Positions 7,251 to 28,731 of a DNA stretch of 36,922 bases are shown piece by piece. Origin of the DNA: Bacteroidaceae bacterium (GTDB lineage Bacteria > Bacteroidota > Bacteroidia > Bacteroidales > Bacteroidaceae). Made by a program: the position numbers and the translations under genes. The stretch spans positions 1 to 36,922 of the forward strand of contig JAGCXU010000135.1 of the NCBI GenBank assembly GCA_017961145.1, read 5' to 3'. Position 1 is the stretch's first letter; every line of letters starts with the position of its first letter. The notes beneath the pieces are model-generated. The model was not told the DNA's origin and did no database searches. It worked only from the letters and a program-made list of their open reading frames with translations.

Positions 7251-8003
7251 ATGCTAAAGATAGAGAACCTACATGCCAGCATCAATGGCAAAGAGATACT
7301 GAAGGGCATCAGCCTGACCGTCAAAGATGGCGAGATACATGCCGTGATGGGACTCAATGGTGCAGGCAAAAGCACGCTCTCGAACGTTATCGTCGGGCAT
7401 CCTGCCTACGAGGTGACGCAAGGCAGTATCACTTTCAACGGAAAAGACTTGCTGTCGCTCAAGCCGGAAGAACGCGCCCACGAAGGCATCTTCCTGAGTT
7501 TCCAGCAACCGGTAGAGATACCAGGCGTCTCGATGGTCAATTTCATGCGTGCTGCCCTGAATGCCAAGCGCAAATATCAAGGTTTGGAACCCATTCCGGC
7601 AGGCGATTTCCTCAAACTCATGAGGGAGAAACGCTCGATTGTGGAGCTCGACAGCAAGCTTGCAAGCCGCAGCGTGAACGAAGGCTTCTCAGGTGGTGAG
7701 AAGAAGCGAAACGAAATCTTCCAAATGGCGATGCTCGAACCGAAACTCACCATCTTGGATGAAACGGACAGCGGACTCGATGTGGATGCGCTCAGGATAG
7801 TGGCCGAGGGCTTCAACAAGCTGCGTCGTCCAGATTCGAGTGCCATCGTCATCACACACTACCAACGTCTGCTCGACTATCTGAAACCTGATGTCGTGCA
7901 TGTGCTCATCGATGGCCGTATCGTCAAGACTGGTGGCCCAGAGCTTGCCATCGAGATAGAAAAACGAGGATTTGACTGGATAAAGGAGGAGATAGGATTG
8001 TGA
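7251..8003 (+). CDS. sufC: Fe-S assembly ATPase SufC
   Basis: SufC is the ABC-type ATPase of the SufBC2D complex; ATP binding drives opening of the SufB-SufD interface for cluster formation. The 250 residues match the family. Walker A is GLNGAGKST (residues 34-42), the signature is SGGEKKRNE (147-155), Walker B is LTILDETDSGLD (166-177), and the switch His lies in VITHYQ (His203). There is no membrane partner, as expected for SufC. The stop overlaps the GTG start of sufD by four bases, indicating translational coupling. It lies 11 bp downstream of the sulfatase gene that separates it from sufB. Confidence 0.97.
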   Translation: MLKIENLHASINGKEILKGISLTVKDGEIHAVMGLNGAGKSTLSNVIVGHPAYEVTQGSITFNGKDLLSLKPEERAHEGIFLSFQQPVEIPGVSMVNFMRAALNAKRKYQGLEPIPAGDFLKLMREKRSIVELDSKLASRSVNEGFSGGEKKRNEIFQMAMLEPKLTILDETDSGLDVDALRIVAEGFNKLRRPDSSAIVITHYQRLLDYLKPDVVHVLIDGRIVKTGGPELAIEIEKRGFDWIKEEIGL

Positions 8004-16848: not shown

Positions 16849-18546
16849 ATGAACTACCTGAAACTTTTGCCTCTTCTCGCCCTTTTCCTCGTCGGATGTG
16901 AGGATGAAGGTCCTGCAACGCTCGTCACTTGGGACATCGGCGAACCGACAACATCTGACGACTCTGAAGATTATTATGCAGGAGGATTGCTTGGTACAAC
17001 CACGGTAAACACTGCTACGGCATACGAACAACCAACAAAAGCGGTGCAAGACGCGGGCATGATGACTGCGTTCAACGAAGGCGAATATCTCTTCGAAAAG
17101 GACTACAACACCAACACTGAGGGTGCCTTCCGAGGGCTCGGACCAGTGTATGTGCGACGAGGTTGCCTCTATTGTCACCCTGGCTATGGCCATGGAGCAC
17201 GGCAAACAGAGTATAAAGCCGACACGCACCGCAATGGATATCTGCTCGTCATCTACGACAAGACCACCAATGCCTACATCCGTTCCGTTGCAGGAATGCC
17301 GCAGACGGGTGCTGTCAAGCCCTTCAAGGCTCCTATAGACGAGAACCAGATCAAGATTGCGTGGAACGACTACACCGACGAGTGGGACAATCAGTTCCCC
17401 GATGGCGAGACCTACTCCCTCATCTATCCTGAGGTGACGATACCTTACACAGCCTATTACGCCCCCGTTGTCGTTCAACGTAGCGGCGTCGACATAGAGT
17501 TGTCGGAAGAAGAATACGACAACGAAGTGGGCGTCTTGTTGGAGTCCACGATAGGCATTTACGGAACAGGCCTCACTGATGCCATACCCGATGAGGACAT
17601 CACGGAACAATGGAAGGCAGAAGGCGAGTATTTCAACAGCATCGGTCGCACTGATGCACTTAACCCGGCTCTGTGGAACCAAGCTGCCAACACATGGAAC
17701 AGCTTCTACAGTAATACCATTCAGGGCGACGGCACAAAGTATGTTCGCCGCTATACTTATGCTCTTTCTCGTGGTCCTCTTCTCGATGCAGCAGGTGCCA
17801 ACGCCATTTGGAACATCACAAATGTCACACGTTCTGACCGTCGTTACCATTACCTCGACCTTGCCGGAAAGTACTATGCCACGAAAGCATCTGAAGACCC
17901 GGATGTTCAGGCGGGATTTGAGGAATACATCAATCGCATCGACCCCGCTCACGCGCATCCGGAATGGCACACAGGCAATCTTCAGCAGGACATCTACACT
18001 TACCTCACCAGCAAGTCACTCGATGCTGAGATGTCAGATGAGCAGTACAGAAGTCTAATGGTCTGGCATCGTGGCTTGGCAGTTCCTGCTGCACGAAACA
18101 CCGCCACAGAAGATTTCAGGCAGGGCAAGCGCTTGTTCTCACAGATAGGATGTGCTTCTTGCCATCGTCCATCGTGGCAGACGGGAAACGACCACTTACA
18201 AGACCCTGCCCGATTCTTTCTTTCGGACAACGACATGCCTCGCTATCCTAACCAGAAGATATGGCCTTACACGGACTTCGTTCAGCACCGTCTCTGGATG
18301 AAGAATGACATTCGCACAGGCTGGTGTCGCACAACGCCTTTGTGGGGACGAGGACTCGCAGCCAAATGCGGAAGTGGTGTGGAGAGGCTGCACGACTGCA
18401 GAGCGCGCAATGTCATAGAGGCCATCATGTGGCACGGATGCCGTTGGGAAGGCGGAACGAGCGACGCCTACCACTCCGTTCTTCAGTTCCGCGCACTCAG
18501 CAAGAAAGAACGCGACCAGGTTGTCTTCTTCATCGAATCGATATAA
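16849..18546 (+). CDS. Di-heme oxidoreductase lipoprotein (DUF1111 family)
   Basis: The protein has 565 residues. It begins with a lipoprotein signal, MNYLKLLPLLALFLVGC (Cys17), so it is anchored on the periplasmic side or surface. Two c-type heme motifs are present: CLYCH (residues 106-110) and CASCH (435-439). The C-terminal block LWGRGLAAKCGSG...RLHDCRARNVIEAIMWHGC is the typical end of the DUF1111/putative thiol oxidoreductase family, related to MauG/cytochrome c peroxidase folds. It needs a cytochrome c maturation system and heme. It starts 4 bp after the imelysin gene, so both are made together. A redox step on iron, for example oxidation or reduction of the imelysin-bound metal, is a reasonable guess. 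No enzyme activity is established for this branch. Confidence 0.9.
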   Translation: MNYLKLLPLLALFLVGCEDEGPATLVTWDIGEPTTSDDSEDYYAGGLLGTTTVNTATAYEQPTKAVQDAGMMTAFNEGEYLFEKDYNTNTEGAFRGLGPVYVRRGCLYCHPGYGHGARQTEYKADTHRNGYLLVIYDKTTNAYIRSVAGMPQTGAVKPFKAPIDENQIKIAWNDYTDEWDNQFPDGETYSLIYPEVTIPYTAYYAPVVVQRSGVDIELSEEEYDNEVGVLLESTIGIYGTGLTDAIPDEDITEQWKAEGEYFNSIGRTDALNPALWNQAANTWNSFYSNTIQGDGTKYVRRYTYALSRGPLLDAAGANAIWNITNVTRSDRRYHYLDLAGKYYATKASEDPDVQAGFEEYINRIDPAHAHPEWHTGNLQQDIYTYLTSKSLDAEMSDEQYRSLMVWHRGLAVPAARNTATEDFRQGKRLFSQIGCASCHRPSWQTGNDHLQDPARFFLSDNDMPRYPNQKIWPYTDFVQHRLWMKNDIRTGWCRTTPLWGRGLAAKCGSGVERLHDCRARNVIEAIMWHGCRWEGGTSDAYHSVLQFRALSKKERDQVVFFIESI

Positions 18547-19909: not shown

Positions 19910-21523
19910 TTACTGTTTTCGTACAGGACGGATGGGTCGTCCATAGAAGCGAGAAGAATAACGGTCTGTCCTTGGCTTGCCCCAAAAATACAAGGAGTAT
20001 GCGCAACGAGAGGTAGCTGGGTGGAGCGAACGTGACCAATAGCAGCCGAGGGTGCCTGCATAATCTGCTTGCCAGCCGCATTCGCCAGCGGCAGGCAGGA
20101 AAATACTATTGCCGTTGCTGTTACTCGTAATCAGACACCCTTTTACATCGTTCTGAGTCGTGTAAGATGAAGTTGTATTGTCGTCGTTTATTAGTTCATT
20201 CATTTGGTCGATACTCGGCATCTGCCAGCCCTTGCCCCAATTGACTGTGGCGGCATCATCCTCCGGCAATAGTTCTGCGAGACCATCCCCGATGAACGTG
20301 CCGTCGGCGTCATACCAGCAGGCCTCCGTCTGGCCGTCGTCAGTGGTGTACTTATTTATCTGCTCCCATATTTCTTGTCCATCGTTCATCCACTTGTAGT
20401 ACCACCATGAGTTGTAGCGCTTGGGTTCTGTCTCGCCCCATGCTAAGTAGTCGCCATACTCTTCGGGATTGTTCGCTCCTATGTTGCAAGTTGCCCAGAG
20501 TGTGCCCGAAGGCAAGCCGAGGTCAACCCAATCGTGTTCGATGGTCACTTGACATTCGGCATATACATCGCTGCCGTCTGTTGATTTGCAAGTTATGATG
20601 CAGAAGCCTTTACCTACAGCTGTCACCTTACCTGTCTGGTCAACGGTTGCCACGCTTGTTTTGCTACTCCTCCATGTTACAGCGGGGTTGCTTGCATCCG
20701 TGGGAAGTACGGTGGCTGTGAGGGTCTTCACCTCGTCTGGCTGAAGAATGACAGATGTCTCGCTCAAAACAATATTTGTGACAAGATTTGTAGGTGGTGT
20801 CTTCTGAACTCGAACAGGACGGATGCATCGGCCAGAGTCGCGGAAGCCAACACGGTTCAAATAGCATTCGTTTGAATCAAAACTTAGAACGTATGCACTT
20901 ACGCATTCGTACTTACTGAGTGTACGCGACCAATAGAGGCCGAGGTTGCCTGCTACTTTATAAACCTCGTTGTCACGATAGCCAGTAGCAGGCAGGAAAA
21001 TACTTCTGCCATTGCTCCAGCTTGTTATCTTCCTCCCGTCAACACCATTCACGGTTACCCATTCTGTTGATGTGTAGTCGCTATTGAACAGCTCATGAAT
21101 CTGAGCTTCACTCGGCATCTGCCATTTATTGCCCCAAAGTACGGTTGCGGCATCATCCTCCGGCTGAAGCGCGGTCAAGGTGTCTGTGTACTCGTTGTAG
21201 CCATTATTGGTGTTATATATACTTATAAAACTGTATTTCGTCAAAGAATATTGTGAGCCGTTGCAGTACTTGTAGGTGCTCCAGTTGTAGATGTCTTTAG
21301 TCTCTGTCTCGCCCCAGGCAAAGTAATCGCCATACTCTTCGGGACTATCCGCTCCTATGTTGCATGTTGCCCAAAGCGTGCCCGAGGGCAAGCCGAGGTC
21401 AACCCATTCGTATTTTTCGACAATTGGCTCATCCTCTTTAGGCACGTTATCCAGCTCCGACACGCTACATGATTGAATAAAAACCAGGAACAATAGGGCT
21501 ATAATTGAGTTTTTCTTTTTCAT
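19910..21523 (-). CDS. Lipoprotein with FISUMP - BIG2 - FISUMP domains
   Basis: The start at 21523 gives MKKKNSIIALLFLVFIQSC, a lipoprotein signal with Cys19; a longer frame to 21592 crosses the promoter box at 21553-21560. The protein has 537 residues. Two homologous domains begin WVDLGLPSGTLWATCNIGA (near residues 40 and 332) and end GRCIRPVR or GRPIRPVR. Each has AWGET, WQMPS and IFLPA blocks typical of the Fibrobacter succinogenes major paralogous domain. Between them lies an Ig-like BIG2 domain (LQPDEVKTLTATVLPTDASN...VTWRSSKTSVATV). The repeats are also close at DNA level (20430-20530 versus 21300-21410). Such proteins are surface-exposed in Bacteroidetes, with unknown ligands. It stands alone, divergent from the HU cassette, just inside the left inverted repeat. 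Confidence 0.88.
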   Translation of the reverse strand: MKKKNSIIALLFLVFIQSCSVSELDNVPKEDEPIVEKYEWVDLGLPSGTLWATCNIGADSPEEYGDYFAWGETETKDIYNWSTYKYCNGSQYSLTKYSFISIYNTNNGYNEYTDTLTALQPEDDAATVLWGNKWQMPSEAQIHELFNSDYTSTEWVTVNGVDGRKITSWSNGRSIFLPATGYRDNEVYKVAGNLGLYWSRTLSKYECVSAYVLSFDSNECYLNRVGFRDSGRCIRPVRVQKTPPTNLVTNIVLSETSVILQPDEVKTLTATVLPTDASNPAVTWRSSKTSVATVDQTGKVTAVGKGFCIITCKSTDGSDVYAECQVTIEHDWVDLGLPSGTLWATCNIGANNPEEYGDYLAWGETEPKRYNSWWYYKWMNDGQEIWEQINKYTTDDGQTEACWYDADGTFIGDGLAELLPEDDAATVNWGKGWQMPSIDQMNELINDDNTTSSYTTQNDVKGCLITSNSNGNSIFLPAAGECGWQADYAGTLGCYWSRSLHPATSRCAYSLYFWGKPRTDRYSSRFYGRPIRPVRKQ

Positions 21524-21552
21524 GATTTCTAGTTTATTTGTTTTTTTGTTTA

Positions 21553-21560
21553 CAAATTTA
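21553..21560 (-). promoter_or_regulatory. -7 box of the FISUMP lipoprotein gene
   Basis: On the minus strand TAAATTTG matches TAnnTTTG, about 30 bp upstream of the ATG at 21523. The -33 position reads TTGC, a weak match. Confidence 0.55.
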
Positions 21561-21666
21561 CGAAAAATAATCGATATTTGCAAGGGAATCACGAGAAAAA
21601 CACGCTTTATTGTTACTTATTGTTTCAAATTGTTTCAGCGTGTCTCAACACCAGTTTCGGCTGTCG

Positions 21667-22512: not shown

Positions 22513-22938
22513 ATGGAAACACTTGGAATCAGGAATAACAATCCTCTAAACATTCGCAAAGTTTCAGGTCAACGCTGGCAAGGCGAGGTACTCCCCCTCG
22601 GGGGAGACAGAAGGGGGTCTGGGTCTCCTTTTGTCCGCTTCGAAAGTATCGAATGGGGCATTCGCGCTGCTTTCGTTCTGCTTCGCACCTATTCCGCAAA
22701 GTACCATGCCAACTGTATTCGCGACATCATTTCTCGATGGGCACCTCCTTCGGAAAACGACACCGAAAAGTACATCAAGAATGTCTGTCTTTGGACCGGA
22801 TTGGGAGGCTTGCAGCGACTGACCGAAGAGGACTGGCCCAAACTTGTCCGAGCAATGGGAAGGCAAGAAATCGGAGTCCTGCTTGATCAAGAGACAATTA
22901 ACCGAGGTTACAAACTATTTAAAAACGAACAACCATGA
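22513..22938 (+). CDS. P5-like (phage structural/lytic) protein with an in-frame repeat insertion
   Basis: The 141-residue protein starts METLGIRNNNPLNIRKVSGQRWQGEV. It has the GxRNNNPxNIR opening, the W-x-G-E-V block and the IRAAFVLLRTYSAKY and ISRWAPPSENDTEKYI segments of the Bacteroidetes structural protein P5-like family, related to a phage PM2/PRD1-type lytic structural protein. It probably acts on the cell wall, or is a domesticated phage protein. Between GEV and FVRFES the protein has an extra loop, LPLGGDRRGSGSP, encoded by a copy of the GC-rich repeat (22588-22627) that was inserted without breaking the frame. The stop overlaps the smalltalk start (ATGA), so the two are coupled. Confidence 0.82.
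   Translation: METLGIRNNNPLNIRKVSGQRWQGEVLPLGGDRRGSGSPFVRFESIEWGIRAAFVLLRTYSAKYHANCIRDIISRWAPPSENDTEKYIKNVCLWTGLGGLQRLTEEDWPKLVRAMGRQEIGVLLDQETINRGYKLFKNEQP
22588..22627 (+). repeat. GC-rich repeat, copy 3, inside a coding region
   Basis: CTCCCCCTCGGGGGAGACAG followed by AAGGGGGTCTGGG, in frame within the P5-like gene, adding about a dozen residues where relatives have a short turn. Confidence 0.6.
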
Positions 22939-23273: not shown

Positions 23274-23312
23274 CATATTATAGTATTCTAAGGGCATGCA
23301 TACTATGGTATG
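23274..23312 (+). promoter_or_regulatory. Two operator boxes upstream of the controller gene
   Basis: CATATTATAGTATT (23274-23287) and CATACTATGGTATG (23299-23312) share 11 of 14 bases and start 25 bp apart. The second is a near-perfect inverted repeat and its last base touches the -33 region. The reverse complement of the second, CATACCATAGTATG, nearly matches the box on the methyltransferase promoter (26097-26110). The arrangement suits activation by the C-like protein of its own operon. Confidence 0.7.
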
Positions 23313-23343
23313 TTGATAACTCGCTCTTATGTTCGTAAATTTG
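23312..23343 (+). promoter_or_regulatory. Promoter of the controller-nuclease operon
   Basis: GTTG (an imperfect -33, 23312-23315), 20 bp, TAAATTTG (23336-23343). Transcription should begin near 23350, which rules out upstream starts and places the first ATG at 23365. The weak -33 next to an operator suggests dependence on an activator. Confidence 0.65.
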
Positions 23344-23364: not shown

Positions 23365-23577
23365 ATGGCAAAAAACATTTCGGAAACAATAGCCACAAAC
23401 CTTCGAAAATATCGAGAAGAACGGGGCCTATCTCAAGAAAAATTAGCATTTGACGCAGGGCTTCATCGGACCTATATTGGGATGATAGAGCGCTGTGAGA
23501 AAAATGTAACTGTGATTTGTTTAGAACGCATTGCAAATGCATTAAAAGTTGATATAACAGATTTAATCCATGAATGA
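23365..23577 (+). CDS. C-protein-like XRE-family controller of the restriction locus
   Basis: This is a 70-residue HTH protein with the layout of restriction-modification controller (C) proteins: LRKYREERGLSQEKLAFDAGLHRTYIGMIERCEKNVTVICLERIANALKV. GLHRTYI is the recognition-helix pattern common to C proteins. C proteins are small dimers that bind paired boxes, first activating their own operon and the restriction gene, and in some systems repressing the methyltransferase. Related 14-bp boxes upstream of this gene and on the methyltransferase start region fit that role. The ATG at 23365 is chosen because the promoter -7 box lies at 23336-23343. The stop overlaps the next gene by eight bases. 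Confidence 0.85.
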   Translation: MAKNISETIATNLRKYREERGLSQEKLAFDAGLHRTYIGMIERCEKNVTVICLERIANALKVDITDLIHE

Positions 23578-23986
23578 ATTTGAAAATTTAGAGTGTTTGT
23601 CACTCTGTAAACAATATAGATTACATTTTGAAGACGCTAATTTTTCTAAGGGCTACATCCCTCGAAAAATTCTGCTGGATTCTACTCGAAACATTCACTC
23701 ATACTTCGTTTTTTGCAAAATTGAAAACGAAACGATAACAAGTGCATATTGGGGGAAACAGAGTTTTCCCCAGTCGTTAAAATCAATGTTGTCTTTACAA
23801 TATTCTGATTTAGATAGACCACTATTTTTTGTTTTTCGAGACAATAATAATAATTATAAATCGATAGAAGGAAATGAAATTCGAGAAGCCATTCTTGAGC
23901 AACCATCCATGAATATTACAAACTATATTCTTGACAACTCTTATAATTTGTTCGATTTACTTATAAAAATAAAAAAAGAACTATAA
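23570..23986 (+). CDS. Unknown 138-residue protein of the restriction operon
   Basis: I do not recognise this protein. It overlaps the controller gene by eight bases and ends one base before the transglycosylase-like gene, so it is a translationally linked member of the operon. It has no signal peptide or membrane segment. The sequence alternates beta-like stretches (HSYFVFCKIENETITSAYWG; RPLFFVFRDNNNNYK) and helices, and ends in a lysine-rich helix, LFDLLIKIKKEL. Its low GC matches the rest of the locus. A subunit or accessory factor for the next two proteins is the simplest idea. It could equally be an immunity or specificity component. Confidence 0.75.
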   Translation: MNEFENLECLSLCKQYRLHFEDANFSKGYIPRKILLDSTRNIHSYFVFCKIENETITSAYWGKQSFPQSLKSMLSLQYSDLDRPLFFVFRDNNNNYKSIEGNEIREAILEQPSMNITNYILDNSYNLFDLLIKIKKEL

Positions 23987-23987
23987 G

Positions 23988-25253
23988 ATGCACAAATTTT
24001 ATCTTACAAACAATCTAGGGGGCGGTGGCACAAATGTGAGTCGCCTATATGACTATATAGAGTTGTTCAACTTGGATAATATTGGAATTCTGTTGAACTA
24101 CTATTATTTAAAAGGTCATTCTACACCTTCATTTGATTGTAAACTTATTTCTCAGATCGAAAAATATAAAGACATACAATCTTTTGTAACTTATTGTCGA
24201 GAATATTTTAGCAATAGGAGAACGACTTCTGCATCTTTTAGCAGTTCTACGACTAATTGCAGAATAAATGGGTATATATTGGATAATGGCTGCGGCAACT
24301 TTTTGCGCAATGTATTAGATGATGGTAAGTCACATACAGATATTGTATCCTTTGTAAAGCCCTTTCTTGATTTTGCGGAATCACTTCATTTTGATTTGTC
24401 CGTCGCATTAGATTTAGCAATGAAATATACATATAAAGCGAATGAAGTGAACAATCCCTCTTTCATGGCAAAATGGAAGTTGTTGGCAAATGATAACAAA
24501 TTGAACCTGTCTTTGTTATCTAAAGCACTAGAAGTCATGAAGGTGGCAAACTATAAGCACAAAATTCTTGCCCCATTACATGGATATGACTATCAATCAT
24601 TCTCAAATTATTACGATGAAATAGTCAAATTAGAGGGCCAACAGGAAGTAAACTTTGGCGGATTTGCTTTAGGTGGCATTGCAAATACTAAAGTTTTGGA
24701 TAATGATTTATGGAAAATTCCTAAAGGATTCTCACGTAATTTAAAATCTGCATATTTGTGTTCTAATCTTATAAAAACAATCAGAAATAAAACTGATAGA
24801 CACATTCATGTCCTCGGAGCAGGGAATATTTTTACATTGCCTTTTTTAATTCATGCTGGCGCAAACTCTTCTGACTGTCATTCGGCATGGCGACGTTCTT
24901 CCGATGGAGGAGTTAATCAGGCTAAAATACTAATTCCACTATTAGATAAAGATTTTCATTTTATCAATACACATAATTGCTTAGAATATGTGGTAGTAAG
25001 CGACGTGACTAGCGATTACAAGTTAAATTCCGGATTTAGTATAGAGAAAATAAAAAAACTTCTAAGATCTTCTAATAAGGAAGATTACTATTTCGGTGAA
25101 ATTATAATCTTTTATGAGGCAATAGTACAATATCAAATATTGATTGATTTCATAGAACAGCATCCAGATAATTATCTTAAACTACTATCAAATAGCCCAG
25201 ACACGACATTTAACAACGCTTACAATAAAATCATATCCGCTCTTAACCTATGA
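23988..25253 (+). CDS. tRNA-guanine transglycosylase/DpdA-superfamily-like protein in a restriction locus
   Basis: This 421-residue protein shows, in order, segments that look like the (beta/alpha)8 barrel of base-exchange transglycosylases. GYILDNGCGNF (Asp99) stands where TGT has DSGGFQ. HFDLSVALDLAMKY (about 134-147) stands where it has the FDEC segment. KILAPLHGYDYQSF (192-205) matches the QGG segment, FGGFALGGIA (223-232) the AVGGL segment, and HVLGAGNIFTLPFLIHAGANSSDCHSAWRRSSDGG (274-308) the region with the catalytic Asp (here Asp296). The zinc-binding CxCxxC of tRNA enzymes is not seen. DpdA proteins of this superfamily put 7-deazaguanine bases into DNA. Its place between a controller and a PD-(D/E)XK nuclease suggests a DNA role. 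The superfamily call is by motif only, and the reaction is inference. Its stop overlaps the nuclease ATG by four bases. Confidence 0.6.
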   Translation: MHKFYLTNNLGGGGTNVSRLYDYIELFNLDNIGILLNYYYLKGHSTPSFDCKLISQIEKYKDIQSFVTYCREYFSNRRTTSASFSSSTTNCRINGYILDNGCGNFLRNVLDDGKSHTDIVSFVKPFLDFAESLHFDLSVALDLAMKYTYKANEVNNPSFMAKWKLLANDNKLNLSLLSKALEVMKVANYKHKILAPLHGYDYQSFSNYYDEIVKLEGQQEVNFGGFALGGIANTKVLDNDLWKIPKGFSRNLKSAYLCSNLIKTIRNKTDRHIHVLGAGNIFTLPFLIHAGANSSDCHSAWRRSSDGGVNQAKILIPLLDKDFHFINTHNCLEYVVVSDVTSDYKLNSGFSIEKIKKLLRSSNKEDYYFGEIIIFYEAIVQYQILIDFIEQHPDNYLKLLSNSPDTTFNNAYNKIISALNL

Positions 25254-26059
25254 TAAGTAAAGATATAAGCCTTTATAAAGAGCTTGTTGCATTTTGCAAA
25301 AGCAACATGCAAGAGATTGAAAGTAAATTTGAAAGACATCTGGAATTCACTCCATTTCATGAAGAATGTTATGAGAAGATGTTTTTCAACAATCGACATG
25401 TAGGTGCACCAACTCCAGTTAAAGATTTAAAGGAACAAATACCAGAGCTGACGGAAGCATATAAAAAGGCTAGTGCATACTATCTAAACCCGCGTAACAA
25501 ATATAAGAAGGGCTATGATATACAGTTGGGACAATGGTATGAAAAAGCACTAACAATGTTCCTGAATACAAAAGGATATGAAGTAAGCAAAAAGGGATTT
25601 CCCTATCCAGACTTAATTGTCAAGGACAAGGCTGGCAATACTCTTGCATATTTTGAGTTAAAGTTTATAGAATCTCCCTTCTTACTTGCTAACAGAAAAA
25701 TACAAAATACTTATCCGTATAAATCGACCAGATATGACTATGAGGCATCTTTGACGCTTGATACTGGTGAAAAGATGGAAGGCCAAAGGGGAAAAATAGA
25801 GGAGATTGAGACACAAGGAATTCCTGTTCATTTTATTTGGTGGTTCGATTGTTTTCATATAAAGGGTATCTTTGCCATGCCTGCTCAGGAAGTCTTTGAC
25901 TTCTACGACCATGTTGGTAATTTGCATGAGAGGAAAACTCGTGAAGGAGATTTTGAAACCCACCAAGAAACGGGGAAAATATATCCACCTTTGCTTGAAA
26001 TGACCACATTCTCGGAGTATCTCGAATTATTGGAAACCATGAAGCAAAAATTATCTTGA
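25250..26059 (+). CDS. PD-(D/E)XK restriction endonuclease
   Basis: The 269-residue protein has GFPYPDLIVKDKAGNTLAYFELK, a clear PD-(D/E)XK motif: Pro120-Asp121, then Glu136-Leu-Lys138 on the next strand. The preceding helix, QLGQWYEKALTMFL, could carry the extra acidic residue Glu98. Such nucleases cut DNA with Mg. I cannot match it to a named restriction enzyme. It is the last gene of the controller operon (ATGA overlap with the transglycosylase-like gene), and two methyltransferases follow. This is what a type II-like system looks like, and expression through the C-like protein would delay cutting until methylation is in place. Confidence 0.82.
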   Translation: MISKDISLYKELVAFCKSNMQEIESKFERHLEFTPFHEECYEKMFFNNRHVGAPTPVKDLKEQIPELTEAYKKASAYYLNPRNKYKKGYDIQLGQWYEKALTMFLNTKGYEVSKKGFPYPDLIVKDKAGNTLAYFELKFIESPFLLANRKIQNTYPYKSTRYDYEASLTLDTGEKMEGQRGKIEEIETQGIPVHFIWWFDCFHIKGIFAMPAQEVFDFYDHVGNLHERKTREGDFETHQETGKIYPPLLEMTTFSEYLELLETMKQKLS

Positions 26060-26064
26060 TTTTA

Positions 26065-26110
26065 TTTGCAGTTTCAAAAATATCATCGTACATTTGCATA
26101 CCATAGTGTA
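26065..26110 (+). promoter_or_regulatory. Methyltransferase promoter with overlapping operator box
   Basis: TTTG (26065-26068), 20 bp, TACATTTG (26089-26096): a consensus Bacteroidota promoter. Immediately after it CATACCATAGTGTA (26097-26110) matches the reverse complement of the controller-promoter box in 12 of 14 bases. It covers the expected start of transcription, a position for repression by the C-like protein. Confidence 0.75.
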
Positions 26111-26130
26111 CAAAGAGCACAATAAGATGT

Positions 26131-26910
26131 ATGAATAAAATATTTAATCATAGCTGTGAGGATATGTTTGAGATTCCCGATAAATCGGTATCTCTAATGG
26201 TTACATCACCACCATACAACATTGATATCCAATATGGCCATAAGTGGGAGAATGGTAAGCAAGTTGAATCAAAAGGTGTTAAGTATTCCGATAATTTAGA
26301 AGAAAATGCCTATAGAGCCATGCTTTCTCGCGTTATCGAAGAAACTAAACGCGTTCTTAAAGATGATGGCCAAATATGGTTCAATATAAAAAATAGATAC
26401 GATAAGGGAGTTATCATTCCTCCGTTTTGGATAATGGATTTTTTCAAAGATATGTATTTGAAAAACATTATCATCTGGAATTTTGATTGGGGAGGAGCAA
26501 CAAGCAAGCGTTTTTGCTCTAGATATGAGTATGTATTCTTCTTCACAAAACAGAAAGAAAAATACACATTCAATTTGGACGATGTAAAAATACCAGCACT
26601 AAATTATCGACCTGATAGGTATAAAAGTCAACTGAAGAATCCAACAGATGTATGGAAGATATCAATGGTTAGCGGAAATTCCCCAGAGAGAACTGACCAC
26701 CCAGCTCAATACCCTGAAGAATTAATAGAGAGAATAATAAAGGTTGGAACTAATCCAGGAGACTTGGTCTTAGATCCGTTTATGGGAAGTGGTACAACCG
26801 CCGCAGTGGCAAAAAAATTAGGACGGCAATATGTCGGATATGAACTTGAGCCAGAATATATAAAGATAGCAGAGGAAAGACTTAAAAATGGAACGCCAAC
26901 ATTATTTTAA
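26131..26910 (+). CDS. Beta-class DNA methyltransferase 1 (N4-cytosine or N6-adenine)
   Basis: The 259-residue enzyme has catalytic motif IV, TSPPYN (residues 25-30), near the start and the AdoMet-binding motif I, LDPFMGSGTT (214-223), near the end: the beta-class order. It transfers a methyl group to an exocyclic amino group. SPPY is most often N4-cytosine, but N6-adenine enzymes with this motif exist. It starts 20 bp after the operator on its own promoter and overlaps the next methyltransferase by 23 bp. AT-rich like the rest of the locus. Together with the neighbour it probably protects the two strands of an asymmetric site, or two bases of one site. Confidence 0.92.
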   Translation: MNKIFNHSCEDMFEIPDKSVSLMVTSPPYNIDIQYGHKWENGKQVESKGVKYSDNLEENAYRAMLSRVIEETKRVLKDDGQIWFNIKNRYDKGVIIPPFWIMDFFKDMYLKNIIIWNFDWGGATSKRFCSRYEYVFFFTKQKEKYTFNLDDVKIPALNYRPDRYKSQLKNPTDVWKISMVSGNSPERTDHPAQYPEELIERIIKVGTNPGDLVLDPFMGSGTTAAVAKKLGRQYVGYELEPEYIKIAEERLKNGTPTLF

Positions 26911-27742
26911 TAAGAATCAACAAAATGTTTATCAAGTAAGGGATTGTTTTTTCTCTATTGCAGATTGCATAGAGACAATGTCACAAATGCCTGAAGGCAT
27001 CATAAATACAATCGTTACTTCACCCCCTTATAACCTAGACAAATCATATGGAGAATATAATGATAACCGCAGTTTCTCTGAGTGGGAGGAACTCATTGAG
27101 AAGGTTGCAAAAGAGGCGTATAGAGTGTTGGCTCCCAATGGTAGTTTCCTCCTAAATGTATCTCCAGTTCCAGAAAGCAAAACCAAAGAAATCATACCGC
27201 TTGATGCAATTGCATATTTCATCTTTAAGAAACAAGGGTATTTCTTGCGAAATAGTATTGTATGGCATTTCAACAATATGCAAAATTGTACAAACAGATT
27301 AAGTGGACGATGGGAAGCAATTCTTTGGTTTGTGAAAGATATTCAGAATTATAAATTCAATTTGGATGATATTAGGATACCTTATATAACAAAAAACGAT
27401 AAGAGGCTTGAAGGAGGCACAGGAAGAAATCCTACTGACACCTGGAATTATGATATTCCGCAAAGTGATTTTTGGTATTTCGATCGAGTCAATAATATGA
27501 CAAAGAACAAATTAGGAATAACCGAGCATCCATGCATCTATCCCACTCCTATGATAGAGCGTATTATAAAGATGACAACAGATAAAGGGGATATCGTTTT
27601 TGATCCATTCTTGGGGAGCGGGACTACTCTTATTGCAGCACAAAATCTTGGAAGAATAGGATTAGGCACGGAACTTGATGCAAAATACAAGGATATCATC
27701 ATCAAACGGGTAAATAACGAATCTATTTTGCCCATGTTCTAA
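26888..27742 (+). CDS. Beta-class DNA methyltransferase 2
   Basis: The 284-residue enzyme is a paralogue-like partner of the preceding one, with TSPPYN at 44-49 and FDPFLGSGTT at 238-247, again beta-class. The target-recognition region between the motifs (about 130-210) differs strongly from that of the first enzyme, so they likely methylate different bases. The ATG at 26888 lies inside the upstream gene (23-bp overlap) and gives a short leader before DCFFSIADCIETMSQMPEG, the usual opening of the family. A strong terminator follows at 27750. Confidence 0.92.
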   Translation: MERQHYFNKNQQNVYQVRDCFFSIADCIETMSQMPEGIINTIVTSPPYNLDKSYGEYNDNRSFSEWEELIEKVAKEAYRVLAPNGSFLLNVSPVPESKTKEIIPLDAIAYFIFKKQGYFLRNSIVWHFNNMQNCTNRLSGRWEAILWFVKDIQNYKFNLDDIRIPYITKNDKRLEGGTGRNPTDTWNYDIPQSDFWYFDRVNNMTKNKLGITEHPCIYPTPMIERIIKMTTDKGDIVFDPFLGSGTTLIAAQNLGRIGLGTELDAKYKDIIIKRVNNESILPMF

Positions 27743-28236: not shown

Positions 28237-28731
28237 CTACGGCGTGATACGTTCCTTGCGCTTCTCGCCCGTCTTGAGGTCTGTGCCTGAGATTTCGACG
28301 TACTCGCACTTGACATTAACTGGCGGCTTCATCTGGGCAAACATCTTCTGAAGAACAATCTCATGTCCGCCTACCTTGACGATGCCCACCCACTTGCCTT
28401 TGTGCTTGCAGAGGCGGATGTTCAGGTCTTTGTAAGCAGTCAGATGCACAACGGCCTCGTCCTCTTTGGCACTAATCACTTTGATGCCGAACGCCATCTT
28501 GCGGTCGAGGAAAGTGAGGTTCTCGATGCGTGTCTCGTGCCCCAGCACCCAATAGGCTTTGAGGGGTTCTTTCGCGGAAAGAGATCCTTTCTCGAGGTTG
28601 ATGTCGTAGCACACATAGTTGCTGTTGGTGCTCCGCTCGAAGATGAAAATATGCTCCTTGGGAATCGTGATTGCCTGCACGGAAAAGCAGAACAAAGAGC
28701 ACAGCAAGGTATAGAGTATGGAACGCTTCAT
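28237..28731 (-). CDS. DUF4833 family exported protein
   Basis: The start at 28731 gives MKRSILYTLLCSLFCFSVQA, a clean signal peptide; a TTG two codons upstream is less likely. The 164-residue protein shows the DUF4833 pattern: IFERSTNSNYVCYDINLEKGSL near residue 30, then PLKAYWVLGHETRIENLTFLDRKMAFGIKV and a C-terminal ISGTDLKTGEKRKERITP. It is exported to the periplasm; the function is unknown. It is the last gene of the minus-strand operon, 20 bp after the DUF5686 gene, and in Bacteroidales I expect it in lipid- or envelope-related clusters. The right 72-bp repeat forms its 3' end. Confidence 0.8.
   Translation of the reverse strand: MKRSILYTLLCSLFCFSVQAITIPKEHIFIFERSTNSNYVCYDINLEKGSLSAKEPLKAYWVLGHETRIENLTFLDRKMAFGIKVISAKEDEAVVHLTAYKDLNIRLCKHKGKWVGIVKVGGHEIVLQKMFAQMKPPVNVKCEYVEISGTDLKTGEKRKERITP

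Follow-up and report, generated by a model that had tools for sequence, protein, structure and literature searches.

What would a divergent relative of tRNA-guanine transglycosylases (TGTs) contribute to a compact restriction-modification system? The question is raised by a 421-aa protein encoded in a draft genome of the Bacteroidaceae (G000), within a stretch of 36,922 nucleotides here called the window. The original prediction described a TGT/DpdA-like gene embedded in a restriction-modification operon; the open reading frame (ORF) is present on the forward strand at its predicted place and length, and a controller, a putative nuclease, and two methyltransferases do surround it. The cassette consists of six forward-strand genes covering about 4.4 kb, flanked by a small gene that ends at 22938 and by a reverse-strand ORF at 28237. 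Its genes and candidate control elements are, in order:

23298..23318, forward strand: operator-like element, a near-palindrome GCATAC-N4-GTATGT upstream of the controller gene
23336..23343, forward strand: Bacteroides-type -7 box TAnnTTTG, predicted to serve the controller/138-aa/TGT/nuclease unit
23365..23577, forward strand: helix-turn-helix (HTH) controller, 70 aa (PADLOC Control_protein 1.3e-21; Pfam HTH_3 6.1e-13)
23570..23986, forward strand: 138-aa protein, conserved in all three loci found, function unassigned
23988..25253, forward strand: TGT/DpdA-superfamily protein, 421 aa, assigned by profile comparison with controls and by invariant catalytic positions
25250..26059, forward strand: putative PD-(D/E)XK nuclease, 269 aa, with E98, P120-D121, and E136-L-K138
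26089..26111, forward strand: -7 box and operator-like element ahead of the methyltransferase genes
26131..26910, forward strand: methyltransferase M1, PF01555 with TSPPY (Pfam 1.5e-60)
26888..27742, forward strand: methyltransferase M2, PF01555 with TSPPY (Pfam 4.2e-55), with relatives in the PDB

The controller start was placed at the ATG at 23365 after the relative in a second locus (L002), the mechanical ORF beginning at 23329. Fusion of the genes by overlaps had been predicted, and holds for the controller and 138-aa genes (23570-23577) and for the TGT-like and nuclease genes (25250-25253), but not between the 138-aa and TGT-like genes, which are separated by a 1-nt gap. The methyltransferase genes overlap each other at 26888-26910, and the first of them begins after a spacing of 71 nt from the nuclease gene. 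A scan of the six cassette proteins revealed no dpd gene, as predicted, and no que gene, and the NCBIfam DpdA model (NF041059) had no match in G000 or in the L002 genome. Elsewhere in the window, a secreted-looking protein (19910-21592, reverse strand) contains a DLGLPSGTLWATCNIGA-type segment twice, and a lipoprotein-like ORF with two CxxCH motifs (16849-18546, forward strand) possibly encodes a dihaem cytochrome.

All six genes recur in identical order in L002, a locus from a sheep-rectum metagenome-assembled genome (MAG) of the same family, flanked there by genes that, by the look of their translations, resemble alpha-galactosidase and CTP synthase. A third locus (L027, in genome G1301) has the order 138-aa gene, nuclease, TGT, M1, M2, and its upstream ORFs of at least 60 aa include no controller. 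The five-gene order whose conservation was to be checked is therefore kept in L002, whereas in L027 the TGT-like and nuclease genes are swapped; the 138-aa, TGT-like, and nuclease genes form one block ahead of M1 and M2 in all three loci, in two internal orders. Co-occurrence of the TGT-like gene with the nuclease and two methyltransferase genes, which the original prediction had named as its refutation test, was found in three of three loci, as was co-occurrence with the 138-aa gene, although these do not form an independent sample because all three were located via the TGT query. The genomic neighbors of the cassette differ between the three loci. The cassette is AT-rich in the window (34.6% GC vs 50.4% elsewhere in the window) and in L002 (33.2% vs 49.5% around it), which fits acquisition from elsewhere in these two cases; in L027 the values are 38.4% and 40.8%. 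Between the window and L002, amino-acid identities are 60-84% with dN of 0.10-0.36, and silent-site divergence has reached saturation in five genes and stands at a dS of 2.15 in the sixth; substitutions in all six genes are mostly silent.

The cassette is rare. In genome samples that overlap one another (relatives, family, order, and phylum sets), the TGT query matched 1 of 101 relatives of G000 (G000 itself) and 3 of 399 family genomes (G000, G1150, and G1301); among 200 relatives of G842 and 100 of G1301 it matched only G842 and G1301 themselves. G1150 and G842 were taken as one genome, that of L002, because coordinates and E-value are identical. Among 395 phylum and 393 order genomes the query returned G000 and one weak match each, which was discarded. 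The weak matches at L006 (E 1.4e-4) and L007 (E 5.1e-4) are false, no TGT-like ORF being present at either place; from their translations we take these to be an EcsC-like and an LptD-like protein. The nuclease query matched 1 of 393 order genomes, again G000, and a pattern scan of genome contigs returned L002 only. Searches of phage records and viral contigs turned up neither the TGT-like protein nor the nuclease, and the nuclease and 138-aa protein had no match among plasmids.

Kinship of the 421-aa protein with TGTs appears at the level of profiles. Direct searches returned nothing credible from Pfam, NCBIfam, PADLOC, PHROGs, or PDB sequences: the Pfam TGT family (PF01702) left the window protein unmatched at E-values up to 10 and gave no match to the three relatives either, and neither the NCBIfam TGT models nor NF041059 matched the 421-aa protein. 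When the window and L002 proteins were compared as a profile with a nine-member TGT profile, residues 180-307 aligned with a probability of 96.9% and a score of 80.7, against a top score of 22.2 in 60 column shuffles and 19.0 for the reversed query. Adding the third relative gave 97.3% and 86.5, with 29.7 as the top of 100 shuffles. As a further control, 98 ORF products of at least 250 aa (six frames, ten loci) were each compared singly with the nine-member profile. Seven of them are profile members, and the seven places after these are taken by the three cassette proteins (80.4, 79.0, and 71.6) and four DpdA-type proteins, namely an L012 protein annotated as DpdA (142.7), an L003 protein that exceeds the NCBIfam DpdA cut-off (74.6), and L004 and L005 proteins annotated as queuine tRNA-ribosyltransferase (72.3 and 66.6). 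One Nostoc ORF follows at 47.2, and all others score at most 29.1. By these measures the C-terminal half of the 421-aa protein belongs, above chance, with the TGT/DpdA superfamily, and the predicted kinship is borne out for that half only, the N-terminal half alone reaching a non-significant 0.2-0.3% probability against TGT. A match of profile A3 to an archaeosine TGT in the PDB (2.4e-17) was discounted because A3 includes three haloarchaeal TGTs, and PDB searches with profiles A2 and A6 alone gave no match. The Nostoc ORF, a plasmid-borne 274-aa product (L009 7929-8753; 87.1% against the TGT profile) encoded near a small TGT gene, is perhaps a further divergent TGT relative.

The nearest relatives are the small TGTs of haloarchaeal dpd-type clusters, a placement that is solid as far as sequence comparison goes. 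A tblastn search of 72,556 plasmids with the 421-aa protein returned three records, all haloarchaeal and annotated as tRNA-guanine transglycosylase (31-34% identity over residues 188-305, E 4e-3 to 8e-3), and these three TGTs match Pfam TGT at 3.9e-26 to 1.1e-30. In profile comparisons by set, haloarchaeal small TGTs reached 95.0-95.7%, ahead of cyanobacterial small TGTs at 67.2-88.0% (two of them singly low, at 4.9 and 11.6%), a pair of Haladaptatus proteins at 54.3-87.8%, and a set of five DpdA-type proteins at 39.9-40.5%. The three canonical tRNA TGTs stayed at noise level as a set (1.2-1.5%) and singly (0.2-4.7%). DpdA-type proteins taken singly ranged overall from 0.2 to 62.2%: two cyanobacterial DpdA proteins gave 47.6 and 62.2%, and phage 9g DpdA (0.2-0.5%), three haloarchaeal DpdA-type proteins (0.2-1.5%), and L015 were at noise level. 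Because several of these single comparisons are noise, kinship with DpdA itself is weaker than with the haloarchaeal small TGTs.

The nucleophile Asp and, at H198, a segment of HG(Y/F)D type are common to the haloarchaeal small TGTs (L003-L005) and the 421-aa protein; the haloarchaeal proteins differ in carrying a CxCxxC stretch. Their surroundings are also unlike the window cassette, since they adjoin DpdA, a 298-aa protein, and a BrxC/D-like ATPase, and their annotated stretches lack a nuclease or methyltransferase of the cassette's kind. One of these clusters also holds queC, folE, queE, and a queD-like gene. The trio of small TGT, 298-299-aa protein, and BrxC/D-like ATPase, adjoining a larger DpdA-type gene, lies at:

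L003 11539-14623
L004 11554-14638
L005 11539-14617

Two cyanobacterial plasmids that also carry an annotated DpdA encode a further, small TGT, whose gene has a helicase gene on either side (L011 5686-6609 and L012 5677-6624). The haloarchaeal 298-aa and ATPase neighbors and the cyanobacterial neighbors were compared with the nuclease and the 138-aa protein, and kinship was rejected.

The 421-aa protein retains candidate active-site positions in the order expected of a TGT. TGT numbering and residue roles (nucleophile, base-binding residues, Gln203) follow general usage for the family. D296 (SSDC) aligns with the TGT nucleophile (FDC or FDS), H198 aligns at the Gln203 position, which is His in the haloarchaeal proteins, G229 aligns with the first conserved glycine, and G230 corresponds to Ser in the haloarchaeal proteins. 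D99 and D142 align with the two base-binding aspartates. All six positions are invariant in the three relatives. Because the N-terminal half is non-significant alone, the assignment of D99 and D142 depends on the order of motifs, which 24 of 20,000 column shuffles reproduced. The TGT segments quoted originally are all present with slightly shifted numbering (ILDNGCGNF at 97-105, APLHGYDY at 195-202, FGGFALGGIA at 223-232, LGAGN at 276-280, and SSDCHSAWRRSSDGG at 294-308); D99 and D296 had been numbered correctly and both align with the TGT positions claimed for them, D99 within the non-significant half. The zinc site (CxCxxC...H) is missing, as had been noted, and its ligands are likewise missing from three cyanobacterial small TGTs that exceed the NCBIfam tgt_general cut-off.

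The partner genes place the cassette among restriction-modification systems. The nuclease has no family or PDB-sequence match, and because known families give no match its assignment is at motif level: the motif residues are invariant in the three relatives, and the signature arises in 27 of 20,000 column shuffles. The PDB relatives of M1 include CcrM, RsrI, and a cytosine-N4 methyltransferase. CcrM and RsrI, the adenine enzymes aligned with M1, carry DPPY where M1 has TSPPY, and an SPPY motif indicates N4-methylcytosine, which M1 and M2 probably produce. The presence of two methyltransferases suggests an asymmetric target site. The 138-aa protein, 60% identical to its L002 relative and 38% to its L027 relative, has no match in family databases. 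A methyltransferase beside a nuclease, as in Type II systems, is found here with two PF01555 enzymes and a nuclease recognized by motif only. We read the cassette as a mobile, compact, Type II-like restriction-modification system that includes, as a conserved additional subunit, a protein of the TGT/DpdA superfamily.

The layout of promoters and operators suggests on which side of this system the TGT-like protein acts. Within the first operator-like element, a 19-bp stretch (23300-23318, ATACTATGGTRTGTTGATA) is identical in L002 up to one R position and gave no match in 100 shuffles with up to three mismatches allowed. The distance from its start to the start of the -7 box, which has the Bacteroides -7 consensus TAnnTTTG (PMC4747536), is exactly 36 nt in both loci. 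Ahead of M1 the -7 box TACATTTG (26089-26096) runs into GCATACCATAGTGTAC (26096-26111), and in L002 (10110-10132) the same layout recurs, a -7 box leading straight into the related element GCATACTGTAGTATGC. The operator arms pair at 5/6 positions on the controller side and 4/6 on the M1 side in the window, and at 3/6 (at 7305) and 6/6 (ahead of M1) in L002. Since TAnnTTTG alone is not rare, occurring 15 times on the forward strand of the window and 14 times on that of L002, the regulatory argument draws on the spacing and elements that the two loci have in common. Scans for terminators and sigma-70 promoters gave nothing above chance. The argument is limited to two loci because L027 lacks the controller and its operator scan (5 found vs 3.8 expected) is not above chance. 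A precedent for paired operators is the Esp1396I controller protein, which binds operators ahead of both units (PMC3758141). Read from position alone, the first site here could activate and the second repress, in which case the TGT-like gene would fall in the late, cutting arm. The layout suggests that in the window and L002 the TGT-like gene is expressed with the nuclease and not with the methyltransferases, which makes simple self-marking a less likely role.

We hypothesize that the TGT-like protein acts on the cutting side, with the nuclease, by attacking or recognizing guanine in unmethylated DNA, which is the best of the explanations considered but is held tentatively and may well be wrong. 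The two methyltransferases would mark host DNA, each on one strand of an asymmetric site, probably as N4-methylcytosine, and the controller would turn on its own gene and those of the 138-aa protein, the TGT-like protein, and the nuclease late while damping the methyltransferases. The TGT-like protein and nuclease would then work together on unmethylated DNA: a target guanine would be flipped into a pocket around D99, D142, H198, and G229-G230, D296 would attack its glycosidic bond, and the base would be exchanged, excised, or tightly held, so that a substrate is made or presented for the nuclease to cut. This role is favored because two methyltransferases already mark and because the TGT-like gene adjoins, and is apparently co-expressed with, the nuclease gene. 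No QueC exceeds the cut-off in the L002 genome, which counts for a role in cutting, and base exchange with a host 7-deazaguanine would need the same residues, which counts against it.

That exchange is the basis of the strongest rival, a minimal Dpd in which the TGT-like protein would insert a 7-deazaguanine (preQ0 or a relative, taken from the host's queuosine pathway) into DNA, where it would either serve as a further self mark or tune the nuclease. We consider it rather unlikely, although catalytic and base-binding positions are retained, the nearest relatives adjoin DpdA in haloarchaeal clusters, one of them with the que-type genes listed above, and QueC exceeds the cut-off in G000 and G1301. 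The cassette lacks dpdB, dpdC, and que genes, no DpdA is present in G000 or G842, and the gene sits in the nuclease unit, whereas marking enzymes are expected early; moreover, QueC is not over the cut-off in G842, a draft genome that is 91% complete as G1150. G842 has a normal TGT, and the state of its QueC may reflect a missing gene, a draft gap, or precursor uptake.

A restriction glycosylase, in which the TGT-like protein excises or exchanges guanine at unmethylated sites and the nuclease cleaves the abasic or altered site, is a less probable proposal still. Two further readings, that the protein senses modified phage DNA or that it acts on RNA, rank lower. In the first of these, the barrel would no longer exchange bases but read modified phage guanines and recruit the nuclease as a Type IV-like arm on a Type II system; modification-dependent systems against 7-deazaguanine phages do exist (GrwAB; PMC12137116), and the TGT-like gene adjoins the nuclease gene in three of three loci. 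We regard sensing as doubtful, since a pure binder would not need catalytic positions that are all invariant in the three relatives and the methyltransferases would be superfluous. Classical TGTs act on tRNA, and the protein might correspondingly work as an abortive arm that modifies or damages the tRNA of an infected cell; this is improbable, given that canonical tRNA TGTs match at noise level vs 95% for the haloarchaeal small TGTs and that G000 and G842, both hosts tested, have a normal TGT of their own. Finally, the protein could be no TGT but a different barrel or fold whose motifs have converged, serving as specificity subunit of the nuclease; this would account for the lack of any direct Pfam, NCBIfam, or PDB match even with three relatives and for the non-significant N-terminal half, but the shuffle and 98-ORF controls speak against it and make it very improbable.

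The proposed action on the cutting side can be set against known systems. In the literature searched, TGT-superfamily enzymes in defense are base writers inside large systems (Dpd and BRC). Dpd likewise ties a TGT-superfamily protein to restriction, but it is large and multi-gene with its own deazaguanine handling (PMC6884629, PMC12839542), for which the cassette has no genes. BRC (BREX-related capture) has a TGT without DpdB or DpdC in a defense locus, but is built on PglZ, BrxC-like, STAND, and HerA/FtsK proteins (PMC12839542), none of which is present in the cassette. Controlled Type II systems of the Esp1396I type combine a controller, a nuclease, a methyltransferase, and operators ahead of both units, as in the window and L002; unlike them, the cassette has two more conserved genes, for the TGT-like and 138-aa proteins, lying between those of the controller and the nuclease, its operator sequence differs, and the L027 cassette has no controller. 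R.PabI and Brig1 provide a precedent for restriction or defense through attack on the glycosidic bond (PMC10273834), with other folds and other bases than those predicted for the TGT-like protein; the term transglycosylase does not occur in that review. Passages of PMC12839542, PMC6884629, PMC12137116, PMC12707154, and PMC10273834 describe no Type II restriction-modification system with a TGT subunit, and the original remark that no described system of such composition is known agrees with the literature searched, which left out important Dpd papers. Here the TGT-like protein is part of a restriction core of five genes, and its regulation in two loci would place it on the cutting side. If it acts on DNA, the cassette would be either the smallest 7-deazaguanine system or a case of a base-exchange active site turned restriction tool, and a TGT-type restriction glycosylase, if true, would be a new restriction chemistry apart from both the R.PabI fold and base-marking Dpd. 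The finding also draws attention to the little-studied small TGTs of haloarchaeal and cyanobacterial dpd-type clusters. Overall, the cassette looks like a restriction-modification system with a divergent TGT/DpdA component, and the retention of its gene set by two other genomes among different neighbors points to a mode of DNA attack or marking that has not been described before.
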